DNA of 64,000 nucleotides from Halobacterium salinarum DSM 3754. Lineage in GTDB: Archaea > Halobacteriota > Halobacteria > Halobacteriales > Halobacteriaceae. Position numbers and translations under genes: made by a program. Positions 36,343 through 45,577 of this stretch are shown here, piece by piece. The notes beneath the pieces are model-generated. The model was not told the origin of the DNA. It saw only the letters and a program-made list of their open reading frames with translations, and ran no database searches. The stretch spans positions 62,001 through 126,000 of the forward strand of contig NZ_VRYN01000002.1 of the NCBI RefSeq assembly GCF_008124605.1. Direction: 5' to 3'. Within the stretch, counting starts at the first letter, position 1, and each line of letters begins with the position of its first letter.

Positions 36343-38916
36343 CTAGCGACCGAGCAGCGAGTAATCCTCGTCGGGCGTGTACCTGCCGAAGAGCAGGCTG
36401 TTGGTGAGCACGCTGACACTCGACACCGCCATCGCGCCGGCCGCCAACACCGGCTGAAGCAGCCCCAGCGAGGCCAGCGGGATCATCGCGGTGTTGTAGC
36501 CCAGCGCCCAGAAGAGGTTCTGTTTGATCTTCGCGAGCGTGCCCTCGCCGATGCGGATGGCTTGGATCACGTCCGCGGGGTCGTCGCGCATCAACGTCAC
36601 GTCCGCCGCCTCGATCGCCACATCGGTGCCCGATCCGATCGCGGCGCCGACGTGCGCGGTGGCGAGCGCGGGGGCGTCGTTGACACCGTCCCCGACCATC
36701 ATGGCGTCGGCGTCGCCCGCCTGGATGGCGTCGACGGCGTCGGCTTTCTCCCCGGGGAGCACGCCCGCCCGAACGTGCTCGGGCGAGACCCCCACGTCGG
36801 CGGCGACCGCGCGCGCGGTGCGTTCGTTGTCGCCCGTGATCATGTGCACGTCGAGGCCGCGATCCTGGAGGGCGTCGACGGTGGCGGCTGCCTCGGGCTT
36901 GACCGTGTCGGCGTCCGCGACGACACCGGCAACCCGGTCGTCGACGGCGACCAGCATCGCGGTCTTCCCCTCGCGTTCGAGGCGTTCCATGGCGTCGGCG
37001 GCGGGCGCCGGGTCGATGTCCGCGCTCGTGAGGAGCGCGCGGTTCCCCACGCGGACGCGGCGACCGTCGACGGTCGCGACGATGCCTTTGCCGGGGACGT
37101 TCTCGAAGGCATCGACTGCGGGAACGTCGAGGCCGCGGTCCTCGGCGCCCGCGACGATGGCGGTCCCGAGCGGGTGCTCGCTGTTGGACTCGGCGGCGGC
37201 GGCCAGCCGGAGCACGGCGTCCTCGTCGACAGCGGCGTCGCTCCGGGTGGCGGTGCCGCCATCGGGGACGGCGGCGACGGCCTCGACGTCCGTGAGCTCC
37301 ATCGCGCCGGTGGTCAGAGTCCCGGTCTTGTCGAACACCACCGCGTCCAACTCGGTCACGCGCTCCAGGACGTCGCCGCCCTGGAAGAGCACGCCGTGTT
37401 TCGCGCCGATGCTCGTGCCGATCATCGTCGCGGCCGGCGTCGCGAGCCCGAGCGCACACGGGCACGCGATGAGGACTGCGGACGCGAACACGACGACGGC
37501 GAACTCGCCGGTGCCGACGGCCGCCGGGCCGCCGCTGACGAGCCCCCACAGCGGAAGCGCCGACACCACGTCAGCCAGCAGCCCGGGGGCGAACCACCAT
37601 ACCGCCCCCCAGAAGACGGCGTTGGCGATGACCGCGGGGACGAAGTACGCGCTGATGCGGTCGGCCAGGCGCTGGATGTCCGGCTGGCGGGACTGGGCGT
37701 CCCGAACCGTGGTGACGATCTGCTGGATCGCGGTGTCCGCCCCCACCTTCGTGGCCTGCACGACGAGCACGCCGTTCTCGTTGATCGTGGCGCCGACAAC
37801 GTCGTCGCCGGGGGCCTTGGACACGGGCACGGACTCGCCGGTGACCATGGATTCGTCGACCGCGGACTCCCCGGACACCACGACGCCGTCGGTCGGAATC
37901 TGCTCGCCCGGTTTGACTTTCAGGCGGTCGCCGACCTCGATGTCGTCGGCGGGGATCTCGCGTGTCTCGCCGTCGGCGTCGACGAGGCGCGCGGTGTTGG
38001 CCTCCATCTCCAGGAGCTCCCGGAGGGCGTCGCTGGCTTGGCTCTTCGAGCGGGCTTCGAGGTAGTTCCCGAGCGTGATGAACACGAGGATGAGCGCCGC
38101 CGTGTCGAAGTAGAGGCCGCCGCCGGCCAGGACGCCGAGCAGCGACGCGAGCGAGTACACGTACGCGGTCGTCGACCCCAGCGCCACGAGGACGTCCATG
38201 TTCGCGGTGCCGTTGCGCACGAGCGCCGCATACGAGTTGCTGAGAAACGACCGCCCCAGGACGACGTAGACGGGGGTCGCCAGTGCGAACTCCGCCCACC
38301 CGAACGGGATCGTGAGGCCGCCAACGGTGATGCTGTCGGGAACGACAGCGCCCCCGAACAGGAAGGTGTCGGCGACGAAAAACAGGAGCGGTGCCGACAG
38401 CACCGCGCCGAACGCCAGGCGGATGCGTTGTCGTCGCCGCTCCGCGTCCCGAGCCTCGTCGGCGGCGGTCTGGGTGCTGGCACCGGTGTCGGAGTCGGCA
38501 TCGATGGGGTCGTAGCCGGCGTCGGTGATGGCGGCGTGGACGGCGTCCCGGTCGAACGCTGCGGGGACGTACGTGAGGTGTGCGTCGTCGGTGGCGAAGT
38601 TCGCGGACACGTCCAGGACGCCGGGGGCGTCGGCGACGGCGTCTTCGATCGTCTGCGCGCAGTTCGCACAGGTCATCCCGTGGACCGGGATCGTGGTGTC
38701 GGCCGTGATCGGGGTGTAGCCGGCGTCCGAGATCGCGGCACAGACGCCCGCCAGGTCGGCGGCAGTGGGATCGTAGGTGACGGTGGCGGCGTCGGTGGCG
38801 AAGTTCGCGGTCGCGTCGGTGACGCCGTCGAGCGCGCCCACGGCGTCCTCGACGGTGCCCGAGCAGTTCGCACAGGACATCCCCCCGACATCGATCCGCG
38901 CTGTTCTGGTCGTCAT
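36343..38916 (-). CDS. copA: Copper-translocating P-type ATPase CopA
   Basis: 857 residues. Two N-terminal HMA domains (GMSCANC near 12-18 and GMTCANC near 80-86), eight membrane helices, actuator TGES, membrane metal site IACPCALGL near residue 484, phosphorylation site DKTGTLTTG near 528, SEHPLG, and hinge GDGVNDAP. It is a complete P1B-1 ATPase exporting Cu(I) or Ag(I) across the membrane. The ATG at 38916 is used; a GTG lies one codon upstream. A dyad at 38987-39001 is about 70 bases upstream and the HMA chaperone gene is downstream. Confidence 0.96.
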
Positions 38917-38986
38917 CACTGGAGACTACGGCATCCCGATTCAAGCGGTTTCTCCCTTCGACTGTTCGGTGAACCGCCCGCCAGTA

Positions 38987-40704: not shown

Positions 40705-41754
40705 CTACGTCTCTGCGCCCCCCGCGAGCCACCGGAGGCCGGTGTACGACGCCGCTGCGACGGTCAGGGCCACGCCCAGCAGCCCCCACGTGAGCGTGGT
40801 GGGGCTGTCGACTGCCAGCCGCGCGATGAGGTTCTGGGGGCTCTGTGGGAGCAGGCTGGCGACACCGAACACCGCCAGCGCAACGAACGAGTACAGCAGC
40901 TGGGCTTCGCGGCGCGCCCCGACGCGGAGCGCGAGCGCCGCGCCGGTGGCGACGAGCACGGCAGCGACGCCCGCGACGAGCGCGAGCAGCGCCAGCGGGT
41001 TGGCGATGTGCGTGCCGTTGAGCCACAGTAACAGGAGCCAGAGCGCGACCTGTGCCGGTGCCAGCCCGACCAGCGCGATCGCTTTCCCGTCGACGATCTC
41101 GGGCAGCGACAGCGGCGCGACCCGCAGCAACGAGAGCGTGTCGCGTTCGAGTTCCTCGGCCATCGAGTCGGCCATCACGCTCCCGGAGATGAACGCCGGC
41201 AGGAACGCCAACAGCGGCAACAGCACGGTGTACGTGAACGAGAAGTACGGGTTGGATCGTTCGTCGGGGGGCAGGTCGACCGGCGTCCGCTCCAGGCGGT
41301 GGTCGAGGTCGGCGCGGCGCTCGCGCTCCAGGGTGGACAGCGCGCCCTTCAGCTCCGTGACCACCAGTGTGGTTCGAAACGACCCCTCCGGCGCTGTGGC
41401 CGCGGCCAGGATGCGCCCGCCCGGTTGCCTGGTGGCGTGAACGAGCGCCTGGACATCGCCGCGCTGGAAGGCAGCGCTCGCGGCGGCCTGCGACGGGTAC
41501 GGAACGACGCTGCGGCTGTCGTCGTCGGCGATGGTGGCCGCAACGTCGCTTGACGCGTTTCCGGTGACGCCGACCGACACCGTGAGCGCGTCGCCGTTGG
41601 CGGTCCCCGGGTCGTAAAGCGACACCAGTCCCACGACCAGGAACGACGAGAACCCAGCGATGAACAGCTGGATGACGAGCGCGAGAACGATGGTTTTCTC
41701 CGAGCGCAGCGACCCGAGGGTGCGCCGCGCGAGGACGACGCGTGGGTTACCCAA
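40705..41754 (-). CDS. ABC-2 type exporter permease
   Basis: 349 residues from TTG 41754, which overlaps the upstream permease-PrsW gene by 8 bp; no better ATG or GTG exists before the first helix. One N-terminal helix (about 18-45), a large extracytoplasmic domain (about 48-170), then five or six C-terminal helices with the SGSVMADSMAEELERDTLSLLRVAPLSLPEIVDGK block typical of ABC-2/NatB-like permeases. Last gene of the three-gene ABC operon. Substrate unknown. Confidence 0.9.
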   Translation of the reverse strand: MGNPRVVLARRTLGSLRSEKTIVLALVIQLFIAGFSSFLVVGLVSLYDPGTANGDALTVSVGVTGNASSDVAATIADDDSRSVVPYPSQAAASAAFQRGDVQALVHATRQPGGRILAAATAPEGSFRTTLVVTELKGALSTLERERRADLDHRLERTPVDLPPDERSNPYFSFTYTVLLPLLAFLPAFISGSVMADSMAEELERDTLSLLRVAPLSLPEIVDGKAIALVGLAPAQVALWLLLLWLNGTHIANPLALLALVAGVAAVLVATGAALALRVGARREAQLLYSFVALAVFGVASLLPQSPQNLIARLAVDSPTTLTWGLLGVALTVAAASYTGLRWLAGGAET

Positions 41755-43486
41755 GGGCGATCACCACCACGGCGATGTTGTACGCGAGGTGCACACCGAT
41801 GGCGGCGGCGAGCGCGCCCACGTACGCGAGCCGTGATCTGGCAGCGCCGACCGCCGAGATGGCGGCCGTCACGACGTGCCACACCAGCGGAGCCACCAGT
41901 AACAGCCCGGGGGACGCACCCCGGAGCGCGGGCGCGAACGCCGCCCGGCCGATGTCCAACCCGGGAAGCCCGACCAGCTGCGTGACGAGCAGCGCCTTCT
42001 CGGCGACGAAGAACCCGACACCGGAGGCGGCTCCGACCGCCAGCGCGGTCCGGAAGCTGCGTCGGTACTGGCCGCGCTCGAAGGCCGCGAACACGTGGAT
42101 GCTTTTCGCGACTTCCTCGATGACGGCGATGGCCCCCAGCAACACCGGGATCGACAGCGAGACGGGCGCGACGAACAGCAGGGCAACGGCGAACAGCTCG
42201 GCGACGAGCACGAACGGGAGGAACAGCGCCGTCCAGACCCCGGCCCGCCGCGGGGTCGCCAGCGGCGCGGCGAGCGCGTCCAGCAGCTTCGACGGGATCG
42301 GCAGCTGGGTGAACATGTCCTCCTCGCGGTAGACGCCCGTCCCCAGGCCGAACAGCACGAACGCTGCCAGCCCCGGCGGCGCAGTCGAGAGCACGAACTG
42401 GCCGGTACTCACGCCGCTGTCGGTGATCGAGTCGACGACCACTGTGAGCGGGGAGATGGCGGCGATCTGGTTGACTTCCGCGAAGACGGCGGGCACGAAC
42501 GCGTACGTGGTGAGCGCGACGCTCACGGCGACCGTGACGAACGTGAGCTCCTTGTACGAGCGCGCGAACATCGCGCCGAGGAACGTCGCCGCGAGGAACA
42601 GCGCGGCCAGCGGCGCGACGGCGAGCACCGCGAGCACGCCCGCGCCCGTTGCGGCGGCGATCACGGAGACGAGCGCGATCGCGCCCGCGAAGTACGGCAG
42701 CGTCTTGCCGGCGACGATGTCGCCCCGCGAGACCGGAGCCACGAGCAGCGGCTCGCCCCGGCGGTCGATGCGTTCGGCGAGCACGCTGGAGCCGTACGCC
42801 TGGATCACGATGTTCAACGGCAACAGGAACGCGAACGCGAACACGAGCGACTGCAGCGGGAACGGCGGCGAGATCGACGACGGCGTGCCGGACTGGGCTT
42901 GTCCGAGCAGTCCGCTCAGCCCGCCGCCGGAGGCGCCCGCCGTCGGTGACGTGCCCGTGGCCCCGTCGTCAGTGGACGGCGTGTCGGTCCGGCCGCCGTC
43001 GCCACCAGTGGTGGAGGATCCGGCACCGTCAGTGTCGGCTTGTGCGCTGGTCACGTCGATCGACTGTGGCCGGTACGTGAGCGACACGACCACGGGGAAC
43101 GCGGCGGCCTGGTCCGGTTCGTCCGCCATGACGGCGTCGTTGTACGCGACGGTGGCGGATCGAAGCGTGGACAGCGCCGCCCGGCCTTTCGCGGTGTCGG
43201 CGTACTGGATGCCGACCGGGGAGACCGTGACATCGGCGTCGCTGCCGGGCTGCACGGCGGCGAGTTGCGGGTCGCTGGCGGCGACATCGGCGTACGGGCT
43301 GTCGTCGTCGACGCCGATCCGGTAGATCCCCTCGCCGGGCGTGGGGCCGGTGGTGACGACCGCGGGCACGATGGCGGCCAACGCAACCGCCACGACGACG
43401 AACGCGATCGCAGTCTCGCGGTCGAGGCTGGTGGCGCTTCGCGTGGTCTCCCAGCGGGCGATCCGCAGGACGTTTCCCGCCTTCAT
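41747..43486 (-). CDS. ABC-2 permease fused to a PrsW-like intramembrane protease domain
   Basis: 579 residues. The N-terminal half is ABC-2/NatB-like: helix near 25-45, a large outer domain with a Gly/Ser/Thr-rich linker (about 155-200), then helices with ERIDRRGEPLLVAPVSRGDIVAGK. The C-terminal third has PrsW-family motifs: IEEVAKSIHVFAAFERG (EE near 456-457), ASGVGFFVAEKALL (about 486-500) and a final VHLAYN (His near 563). PrsW-family proteins are membrane proteases that cut anti-sigma factors in Bacillus. The fusion overlaps the ATPase gene by 4 bp, so it belongs to this exporter. Confidence 0.88.
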   Translation of the reverse strand: MKAGNVLRIARWETTRSATSLDRETAIAFVVVAVALAAIVPAVVTTGPTPGEGIYRIGVDDDSPYADVAASDPQLAAVQPGSDADVTVSPVGIQYADTAKGRAALSTLRSATVAYNDAVMADEPDQAAAFPVVVSLTYRPQSIDVTSAQADTDGAGSSTTGGDGGRTDTPSTDDGATGTSPTAGASGGGLSGLLGQAQSGTPSSISPPFPLQSLVFAFAFLLPLNIVIQAYGSSVLAERIDRRGEPLLVAPVSRGDIVAGKTLPYFAGAIALVSVIAAATGAGVLAVLAVAPLAALFLAATFLGAMFARSYKELTFVTVAVSVALTTYAFVPAVFAEVNQIAAISPLTVVVDSITDSGVSTGQFVLSTAPPGLAAFVLFGLGTGVYREEDMFTQLPIPSKLLDALAAPLATPRRAGVWTALFLPFVLVAELFAVALLFVAPVSLSIPVLLGAIAVIEEVAKSIHVFAAFERGQYRRSFRTALAVGAASGVGFFVAEKALLVTQLVGLPGLDIGRAAFAPALRGASPGLLLVAPLVWHVVTAAISAVGAARSRLAYVGALAAAIGVHLAYNIAVVVIALG

Positions 43487-44346
43487 GCGCCGGTCACGTC
43501 GAGGAAGACGTCTTCGAGTGTGGACTCGTCGGTTCGGATGTCGACCACGCCGCCGCCGGCGTCGGCGGCCGCAGCCCGGATCGCGTCGACGTCGGCCATC
43601 GAATCGACGGTGGTGACGTAGCGGCCATTAGACGGCCGGGCGTCGTCGACGTCGACGTCGGTGAACACCCGATAGGAGACCTCGCCGTGTTCGTCGCGGA
43701 TGTCGGCCAGCGTGCCGGTGGCGGCGAACTGTCCGTCCCGCATGATGGCGACGCGGTCACAGACGCTTTCGACGTGGTGGAGGTCGTGGGCGCTGAACAC
43801 GATCGTCTTGCCGTCGGCGGCGAGTTCGCGGGTGAACTCGATGACGGTGTTCGTCGTGAGCGGATCGAGTCCGCTTGCGGGTTCGTCGTACACCAGCACG
43901 TCGGGGTCGTTGACCAGCGAGCGCGCGATCGCGACCTTCCGGGTCATGCCCTTCGAGAAGTCGCCGACGGGACGGTCACGGGCGTCGAGGTCGAGGCGAT
44001 CGAGGGCGGCCTCGATGCGCTCGTTTGCGGTCGCCCGGTCCACGTCGTAGAGATCCGCGAAAAACCGCAGATAGCTCCGGGGCGTCATTTCGTCGTACAG
44101 CGGCGACTCCTCTGGCAGGAACCCGAGGGTGCGGCGCATCGCCGTGTCGCCGGCGTCGAACCCGTTGACGGTGATGTCGCCGGCGGACGGCTCAACGAGC
44201 CCACAGAGCATCTTCAGCGTGGAGGTCTTGCCGGCACCGTTGGGGCCGACGAGTCCGAAGACTTCCCCGGCACCGACGTCGAAGGAGACGCCGTCCACGG
44301 CGGTGACGCCGCCGTACCGTTTTTCTAGGCGTTGCACGGAGATCAT
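43483..44346 (-). CDS. ABC transporter ATP-binding protein
   Basis: 287 residues. Walker A GPNGAGKTST near residue 35, Q-loop region FLPEESPLYDEM (Q replaced by E), signature FSKGMTRKVAIARSL (degenerate LSGGQ), Walker B VLVYDEPASGLDP, and switch His in SAHDLHHVE. A C-terminal extension follows, as in NatA-type exporter ATPases. First gene of the operon with two permeases. Likely exports or inserts a compound or protein across the membrane. Confidence 0.95.
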   Translation of the reverse strand: MISVQRLEKRYGGVTAVDGVSFDVGAGEVFGLVGPNGAGKTSTLKMLCGLVEPSAGDITVNGFDAGDTAMRRTLGFLPEESPLYDEMTPRSYLRFFADLYDVDRATANERIEAALDRLDLDARDRPVGDFSKGMTRKVAIARSLVNDPDVLVYDEPASGLDPLTTNTVIEFTRELAADGKTIVFSAHDLHHVESVCDRVAIMRDGQFAATGTLADIRDEHGEVSYRVFTDVDVDDARPSNGRYVTTVDSMADVDAIRAAAADAGGGVVDIRTDESTLEDVFLDVTGA

Positions 44347-44404: not shown

Positions 44405-45175
44405 TCATCTCGGGAGGGTGGTGGCGTCGGCTCGCAGGTCTGCCGTCACGCGGTCGGCCCACGCCACAGCCTGGGCGTCGTCGGTGTGGACGAGGCTGGT
44501 GTGGCCGGTGTCGTCGTAGAACAGCCCACAGGCGTACGTGGTCGATGTGGTGTCGAGGGTGAACAGGCTGTACGGGAGTGTGGTCGTGGCTTCGCGCAGC
44601 GTGAGTGCGTCGGTGCGCAGCGCGTCAGTGACGCTGTCGCCGTGTGTGGCGACGAGCGCGTCCAACACGTCGGGGTGTAACACCAGCGAGACCTGCAGCT
44701 CGCCCGCACGGATGCGCTCGCGGAGCGTCGACACGACGCTGTCGAGGACGGCGCTCGCGTACCCCTCGATGCGCGTGGCGTCGGCGAGCAGCGACCGGTA
44801 GGCCTCGGTGGCGCGCTGGGGCGCAACCGACGTGGCGTTGACCACCGTCGCGTCCCGGAACAGGACGGTGTCCATGCGGGCGTCGGCCGGGACCGTCGCG
44901 AGGGCGGCGTCAGCCGCGTCCAGGCCGTCGATGTCGGCGGCGAACGATTCGTAACTGCGCAACGCGAGTCGACCCTTGAGCGTGAGCGACACCTGACCGG
45001 CGCGCTCAAGCAGGGTGTGGGCCTCCAGTTCACGAACGGCGCGGTCGACCGTCGACCGGGAGACGGGCAGCGTGTCAGCGAGCTCCGGCTTCGTCGTGGT
45101 GGTGGCGTCTCGGACTGCCCGCATGAGGTCGGCGCGCTGCGCGAGCAGCTGGAACAGCGAGTCGGGTGCCGGCAT
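44405..45175 (-). CDS. HTH transcriptional regulator with DUF1724-like C-terminal domain
   Basis: 256 residues. The N-terminal winged HTH is LLAQRADLMRAVRDATTTTKPELADTLPVSRSTVDRAVRELEAHTLLE. The C-terminal part (about 95-250) resembles the methanogen/haloarchaeal regulator domain: SVAPQRATEAYRSLLADATRIEGYASAVLDSVVSTLRERIRAGELQVSLVL, then TLPYSLFTLDTTSTTYACGLFYDD. Upstream of the ABC operon on the same strand (58 bp gap), so it may regulate it or itself. An upstream in-frame ATG exists (45217) but the conserved part starts at 45175. Confidence 0.87.
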   Translation of the reverse strand: MPAPDSLFQLLAQRADLMRAVRDATTTTKPELADTLPVSRSTVDRAVRELEAHTLLERAGQVSLTLKGRLALRSYESFAADIDGLDAADAALATVPADARMDTVLFRDATVVNATSVAPQRATEAYRSLLADATRIEGYASAVLDSVVSTLRERIRAGELQVSLVLHPDVLDALVATHGDSVTDALRTDALTLREATTTLPYSLFTLDTTSTTYACGLFYDDTGHTSLVHTDDAQAVAWADRVTADLRADATTLPR

Positions 45176-45577
45176 CGTTTCTACACTAGTGGCGTTGCGT
45201 GAAAACGTCTTCCACATAAACGACCGTTATAGTTATCTGTGATGCGTGACGACTGCACGTCTCGGCAACACGTAGGGTAAAGCATTCACCGGCCGTGTGT
45301 ACAGTTGCTGGTGCGCACGCACCGGCTGTGCCTCTGACACGCTCCGAGCCGGTTCGAACGCCGGCTACCGGGGTGCCCGACACGCTCCAGCCACCGACCA
45401 CGCCCGACACGGCGATCCAGTCCCCCACTTGTCCAGCGCCACGTCGGTGGGGCGTGGTCGCCGGCTCGCCGCCAGTACTGCCCCAGGCTGGACGGCGGCC
45501 ATCGGCTGCCCGAGCGTTCGACCCCCGGGCCACTATTCATTACCGGTCGCTCCGCTACCGCGCGTCACGTCGCCTGT
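45176..45577. other. Intergenic region without a supported gene
   Basis: 402 bp. The first 110 bases are AT-rich and contain promoter-like sequence, including a minus-strand GATAACTATAACGG element at about 45224-45237, suited to the HTH gene. The rest is GC-rich; open frames on both strands there are Pro/Arg/Gly-rich and look random. No repeat or RNA fold stands out. Confidence 0.5.

Follow-up and report, generated by a model that had tools for sequence, protein, structure and literature searches.

An ABC-2 permease fused to a PrsW-type intramembrane protease domain in Halobacterium salinarum and other Halobacteriota: a candidate cleave-and-export machine

Why would the permease of an exporter carry an intramembrane protease domain at its C terminus? 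The question is raised by a gene in a 64,000-nucleotide stretch of Halobacterium salinarum DSM 3754 (contig NZ_VRYN01000002.1, positions 62,001 to 126,000 of the forward strand), hereafter called the window, whose first letter is position 1. A reading made from the sequence alone had claimed an ABC-2 permease fused to a PrsW-like protease at 41747-43486, and translation yielded an open reading frame (ORF) of 579 amino acids at exactly these coordinates, on the minus strand, with its ATG at 43486 and its stop codon ending at 41747. The fusion protein, delimited on the basis of this translation and of an alignment of 34 sequences, consists of an ABC-2 permease domain (about residues 1 to 396; 42299..43486, minus strand) followed by a PrsW-type protease domain (about residues 400 to 579; 41747..42289, minus strand). 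The AF2 model of the whole protein reached a mean pLDDT of 79.5, with values mostly above 90 in the C-terminal third. In one public record, the protein carries the label "ABC transporter permease subunit", and the protease goes unmentioned.

The assignment of the N-terminal half to the ABC-2 permeases was upheld. The Pfam family ABC2_membrane_3 matched the window copy weakly (E 0.29) and 20 of the 34 orthologues at E<=0.01 (best 8e-7), and ABC-2 families were found by Pfam in most of the 34. In the AF2 model, this half contains six long transmembrane (TM) helices and an extracytoplasmic part (about residues 47 to 210) that sits between TM1 and TM2, and its stretch 138-207 is of low confidence, acidic and rich in Gly, Ser and Asp. 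Structural comparison with VIA-align gave NosY as the top match to the permease model (Z 16.5, 207 residues, 3.8 A), followed by insect ABCH and then by a mycobacterial ABC efflux pump (Z 14). The profile matches in orthologues, the fold and the presence of a cognate ATPase all identify this half as an ABC-2 exporter permease.

The fusion gene is the middle one of three tightly packed, co-directional genes. Immediately upstream, on the minus strand at 43483..44346, lies the gene of an ABC ATPase of the NatA/DrrA type, the translation of which shows a Walker A motif (GPNGAGKT) and a Walker B motif (VYDEP); it matched PF00005 with an E value of 5e-30 and the drrA-like model TIGR01188 with 1e-68, yet under the cut-off of that model. 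Downstream of the fusion, also on the minus strand (40705..41754), is a second ABC-2 permease lacking a protease domain (PF12698, E 2e-16). The overlaps reported by the sequence-only reading, 4 bp between ATPase and fusion (43483-43486) and 8 bp between fusion and second permease (41747-41754), are both present, the latter provided that the first possible start of the second permease, a TTG at 41754, is used. Homology between both permease halves was considered and rejected, the alignment covering one short conserved stretch only.

Further upstream, and co-directional with the operon, we found a helix-turn-helix (HTH) regulator of the HVO_A0261/FilR1 type (44405..45217, minus strand; PF08350, E 1.5e-26; PF25213, E 2e-12). 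Comparable HTH regulators upstream of the operon were found at Halobacteriaceae loci only, and the gene is probably just a family-level neighbour. At nearly all non-haloarchaeal loci, clustering of the ORFs of more than 110 amino acids revealed no recurring neighbour beyond the three-gene set. Not far from the locus, 36343-38919 of the window encodes a P-type ATPase (CPx, copper-type) with two N-terminal metal-binding motifs, GMSCANC and GMTCANC, which appears to be unrelated to the fusion operon.

The evidence that the C-terminal third is a PrsW-type protease domain starts from its motifs. The EE..K, GVGF..E and late His named in the sequence-only reading are all present in the translation: the EExxK motif reads EEVAK at residues 457 to 461 (nucleotides 42118-42104; E457, E458 and K461), the second motif is GVGFFVAEK at 489 to 497 (F492, F493, E496 and K497), the third is H537, and the fourth is HLAYN at 566 to 570 (H566, Y569 and N570). 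The residues singled out earlier (456, 494 and 563) do point to genuine motifs, but their numbering is off by one to three, and H537 and N570 had been overlooked; moreover, what had been described as a Glu/His metal site is better called a glutamic-type intramembrane protease site, in keeping with Rce1-type chemistry (PMC6588880, PMC11980579).

Profile searches depended on how the protein was presented. With hmmscan, neither the window copy nor any full-length protein among the 34 orthologues gave a significant match to PF13367 (PrsW), and full-length NCBIfam scans likewise missed the PrsW half. In contrast, when the C-terminal domains of orthologues were scanned in isolation, seven of seven matched PF13367 (E 8e-10 to 9e-7; 29.0-39.1 bits, for a gathering cut-off of 23.5 bits), two of them from proteins 79-80% identical overall to the window copy, and further orthologues exceeded the cut-off in six-frame searches of relatives. 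The expected PrsW homology was thus recovered in isolated orthologue domains and not in the window copy or in full-length proteins, and the full-length miss is taken to be an effect of filtering or composition, not absence of the domain. That whole-protein hmmscan overlooked it in all 34 orthologues amounts to a systematic annotation gap. In line with a PrsW identity, hhalign aligned the domain to 30 stand-alone haloarchaeal PrsW proteins with an E value of 5e-6 and a probability of 87%, all four motifs being in register. CPBP was rejected as the protease family, since its hhalign E value was 9e-3 compared with 5e-6 for PrsW.

We then considered the fold. Modelled alone from 86 sequences, the protease domain reached a mean pLDDT of 91.9; its best match among solved structures was APH-1 of gamma-secretase (Z 10.6, 5.1 A, 161 of 180 residues), the next a subunit of the BOS complex, and the match to Rce1 (4cad) was weak (Z 4.8, 4.4 A, 137 aligned). 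VIA-align did find matches, whereas Foldseek against the PDB returned nothing significant for either the whole protein or the domain (for the domain, none at E<=0.001); a PDB sequence search with a 34-row profile gave no match. APH-1, Rce1/CPBP and PrsW have been described as remote homologues (PMC6588880). In the AlphaFold model, four TM helices carry one motif each, within about five residues of the helix midpoint, where an intramembrane active site would be expected to lie. The structural check proposed for the motif residues was therefore positive at the level of helices, with each motif in mid-helix and a fold like that of APH-1 and Rce1, and the domain model places the motifs in TM helices of an RCE-1-like/APH-1 fold, as in PrsW. 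It comprises about five long helices in addition to short ones, and not the approximately eight TM helices of most PrsW representatives (PMC3482391); since that number was drawn from "most representatives" (PMC3482391), we regard the mismatch as variation rather than strict failure. The other membrane helices of the fusion belong to the ABC-2 half. Because the membrane domains of ABC exporters share the APH-1 topology (PMC6588880), the fold alone is no proof of a protease, and it is the polar motifs that discriminate.

These motifs are strikingly constrained. Among 86 archaeal copies, drawn from haloarchaea as well as from further lineages of the phylum and with identities down to about 24-30%, the domain has only eight invariant positions (E457, E458, K461, E496, K497, P533, H537 and H566), and six of them are PrsW motif residues (EExxK, E, H and H). 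The chance of finding the six motif residues among random invariant columns of a domain of about 180 positions is about 6e-10, a rough figure given that alignment columns are not independent. A few deep copies have D in place of N570. Invariance of the same motifs in 86 diverse relatives shows that the PrsW-like motifs are not there by chance and, by the same token, makes it very probable that the fused protease is active. Residues 496-497 are an invariant E-K in the fused clade and E-N in stand-alone haloarchaeal PrsW; judging from the alignments, the E-K pair is a signature of the fused clade, beside the presumed active site.

A survey of this domain pairing had been suggested for haloarchaea and was extended past them. 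In the phylum sample of 393 genomes, 202 carry the fusion, as do 34 of 59 relatives; Haloferax species are among its carriers, and it is single-copy in most genomes. All full-length copies inspected, from haloarchaea and from other lineages, keep both halves; the fused form with the same motifs occurs at more than 100 loci in many genomes, and the divergence of one half tracks that of the other (r = 0.92 over 100 sequences). Given its distribution over the phylum, the fusion is ancient. A stand-alone PrsW gene is found in most relatives, whether or not they have the fusion, and the window's own genome has a separate one (G000:C1:882714-883319); the fused domain is thus not merely the resident PrsW relocated. 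Two genomes of the same order (G049 and G034) have four or five PF13367 matches each, compared with the usual one or two.

The partners of the fusion are inherited with it. The second permease and the fusion occur in an identical subset of 34 of the 59 genomes, and this joint presence and absence implies that gain and loss affect the gene set as a whole. The ATPase gene adjoins the fusion in nearly all relatives, and the order ATPase-fusion-permease is kept at 78 of 80 haloarchaeal loci, the two exceptions being a locus truncated by the end of a contig and a solitary fusion in Halorussus salinisoli. The latter (L088) is a second copy in its genome, its protease motifs are intact, and no recognisable ATPase or second permease lies within 6 kb of it. 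In most non-haloarchaeal lineages (L195-L203, L205-L206 and L209-L213), the ATPase gene is adjacent to, and divergent from, those of the fusion and the second permease, a difference in orientation best read as a rearrangement that retains the gene set.

The domain make-up, the ancient and consistent fusion, the strict conservation of the motifs and the co-inheritance with the second permease are what an answer to our opening question has to accommodate. We propose that the three genes would encode a single ABC exporter, made of the ATPase and two unlike ABC-2 permeases, one of which bears a PrsW-type glutamic protease; the two permeases would form a heterodimer around the exporter pore. A membrane-embedded peptide, be it a signal peptide after its cleavage, the stub of a transmembrane segment or the tail end of a small membrane protein, would enter the protease domain from the bilayer and be cut in mid-membrane at the E457/E458-E496-H537-H566 site, and the fragment would be passed to the neighbouring ABC-2 channel and expelled at the expense of ATP. 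The protease would then supply, trim or control what passes through the exporter, and the cleavage product would be the exported cargo. To this reading, a cleave-and-export machine for membrane or signal-peptide fragments drawn by analogy as an in-cis counterpart of Eep/EcsAB, we assign a probability of about 0.4. Since the clustering of neighbours at non-haloarchaeal loci revealed no conserved candidate for a substrate gene, the link to a signal protein or an exported peptide, already suggested from the sequence alone, is put forward as a hypothesis. More tentatively, the fusion operon might specify a self-contained cleave-and-export complex across Halobacteriota and possibly a pathway by which archaea in general clear their membranes or signal through peptides. 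The idea that the fusion clears the tails left by the archaeosortase ArtA was abandoned: every one of the 321 near-complete genomes sampled contains ArtA (TIGR04125), and 191 of them have the fusion, so that their co-occurrence is uninformative.

Against cleavage followed by export, the physical fusion would be explained just as well by transport regulating proteolysis, and this is the main rival. The ABC module would sense a compound acting on the envelope, or else its own transport cycle, and switch on the PrsW domain against a membrane-tethered regulator, much as B. subtilis PrsW acts on RsiW, with the sensor residing within the same protein. Such control finds precedent in the founding PrsW, a site-1 protease for an anti-sigma factor (PMC3482391, PMC9263693), and in the control of RasP-dependent proteolysis by EcsAB in B. 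subtilis (PMC7478892), and it would agree with the strong conservation of the protease motifs and with the HTH regulator just upstream in Halobacteriaceae. However, a family scan showed this regulator to have no membrane domain, it is confined to one family, and clustering of the ORFs of more than 110 amino acids found no conserved membrane-bound regulator at non-haloarchaeal loci. To our knowledge, moreover, archaea have no ECF sigma/anti-sigma pairs. We thus hold this alternative to be doubtful, while regarding it as a serious competitor.

Another alternative is that the operon encodes an exporter dedicated to one substrate class (a secreted peptide, a small lipoprotein or a lipid-linked molecule), the protease stripping a leader during export as in bacteriocin exporters. 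The fusion of a protease to an exporter is indeed the design of leader-peptidase exporters, and the ABC-2 fold with its extracytoplasmic part would suit such a role. No small precursor gene recurs among the ORFs over 110 amino acids at non-haloarchaeal loci, though, and the system is widespread and mostly single-copy, unlike accessory bacteriocin loci, which makes a dedicated processing function unlikely.

It is rather improbable, too, that the PrsW-like domain is a non-catalytic scaffold holding the exporter or a partner, as APH-1 does in gamma-secretase. The nearest solved fold is indeed that of a scaffold subunit, followed by the BOS complex subunit, and the topological resemblance of ABC-2 membrane domains to APH-1 (PMC6588880) would fit a structural role. 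Yet EExxK, E, H and H are invariant over the 86 copies while nearly everything else varies, and APH-1 itself reads QExxR; a scaffold or pseudo-protease would not be expected to hold exactly these residues and is disfavoured by the aligned sequences. Finally, a mis-joined ORF, or an ordinary ABC-2 permease with C-terminal helices of PrsW-like composition, would account for the lack of hmmscan matches to PF13367 in the window copy and the full-length members, but is refuted by the isolated orthologue domains passing the PF13367 cut-off, by the fused form with the same motifs at more than 100 loci of many genomes and by the 86-copy invariance of the motifs.

Cleavage coupled to export would bear on a poorly understood process, the clearance of hydrophobic leftovers after intramembrane cleavage. 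In bacteria, the links between Eep and EcsAB and between RasP and EcsAB are genetic; a protease permanently joined to an exporter permease would allow this coupling to be tested directly in haloarchaea amenable to genetics. The analysis also assigns a probable class of function to a gene family present in half of the sampled genomes of the phylum.

Compared with known systems, the permease half shares its fold with NosY of NosDFY-type ABC-2 exporters, from which the fusion differs by its protease domain and by the large extracytoplasmic insert between TM1 and TM2. The protease half has the four motifs EExxK, FxxxE, H and HxxxN in common with the PrsW family (PF13367, MEROPS M82; for instance, B. 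subtilis PrsW), but sits behind an ABC-2 permease and has fewer TM helices than stand-alone PrsW. Its fold is that of APH-1 and Rce1 (the RCE-1-like group of ECOD); APH-1, however, has drifted to QExxR and lost the EE motif (PMC6588880), and it is a subunit of another protease.

No paper on an ABC-2/PrsW fusion was found in the literature searched, subscription papers being outside its coverage. Closest in architecture is the family NF041647, "ABC transporter permease subunit/CPBP intramembrane protease", which by its name has the same order of permease and then protease, the latter from the same superfamily, the difference being that its protease half is CPBP and that of the fusion PrsW. The permease half of NF041647 resembles instead the second, unfused permease of the operon, through a weak match (E 7e-4). 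NF041647, whose cut-off is 435 bits, did not match the window fusion, matched one of the 34 orthologues (2.9e-5) and gave no match over its cut-off in 120 genomes of the phylum. ABC-2 permeases fused to the related CPBP proteases are thus already a named family, and it is the PrsW version that full-length profile annotation has missed; together, the two suggest repeated fusion of glutamic intramembrane proteases to ABC-2 exporters.

Closest in proposed function are the Eep/RseP and EcsAB/PptAB systems, where membrane peptides are the common substrates of an intramembrane protease and an ABC exporter, as we propose for the fusion. In Gram-positive bacteria, the production and secretion of peptides derived from lipoprotein leaders require both Eep and EcsAB (PMC7157817), and RasP of B. 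subtilis depends on EcsAB for its function (PMC7478892). There, the two activities are encoded by separate genes and the protease is an intramembrane metalloprotease, of a family other than PrsW, whereas in the haloarchaeal protein a PrsW-type domain and an exporter permease are parts of one polypeptide.
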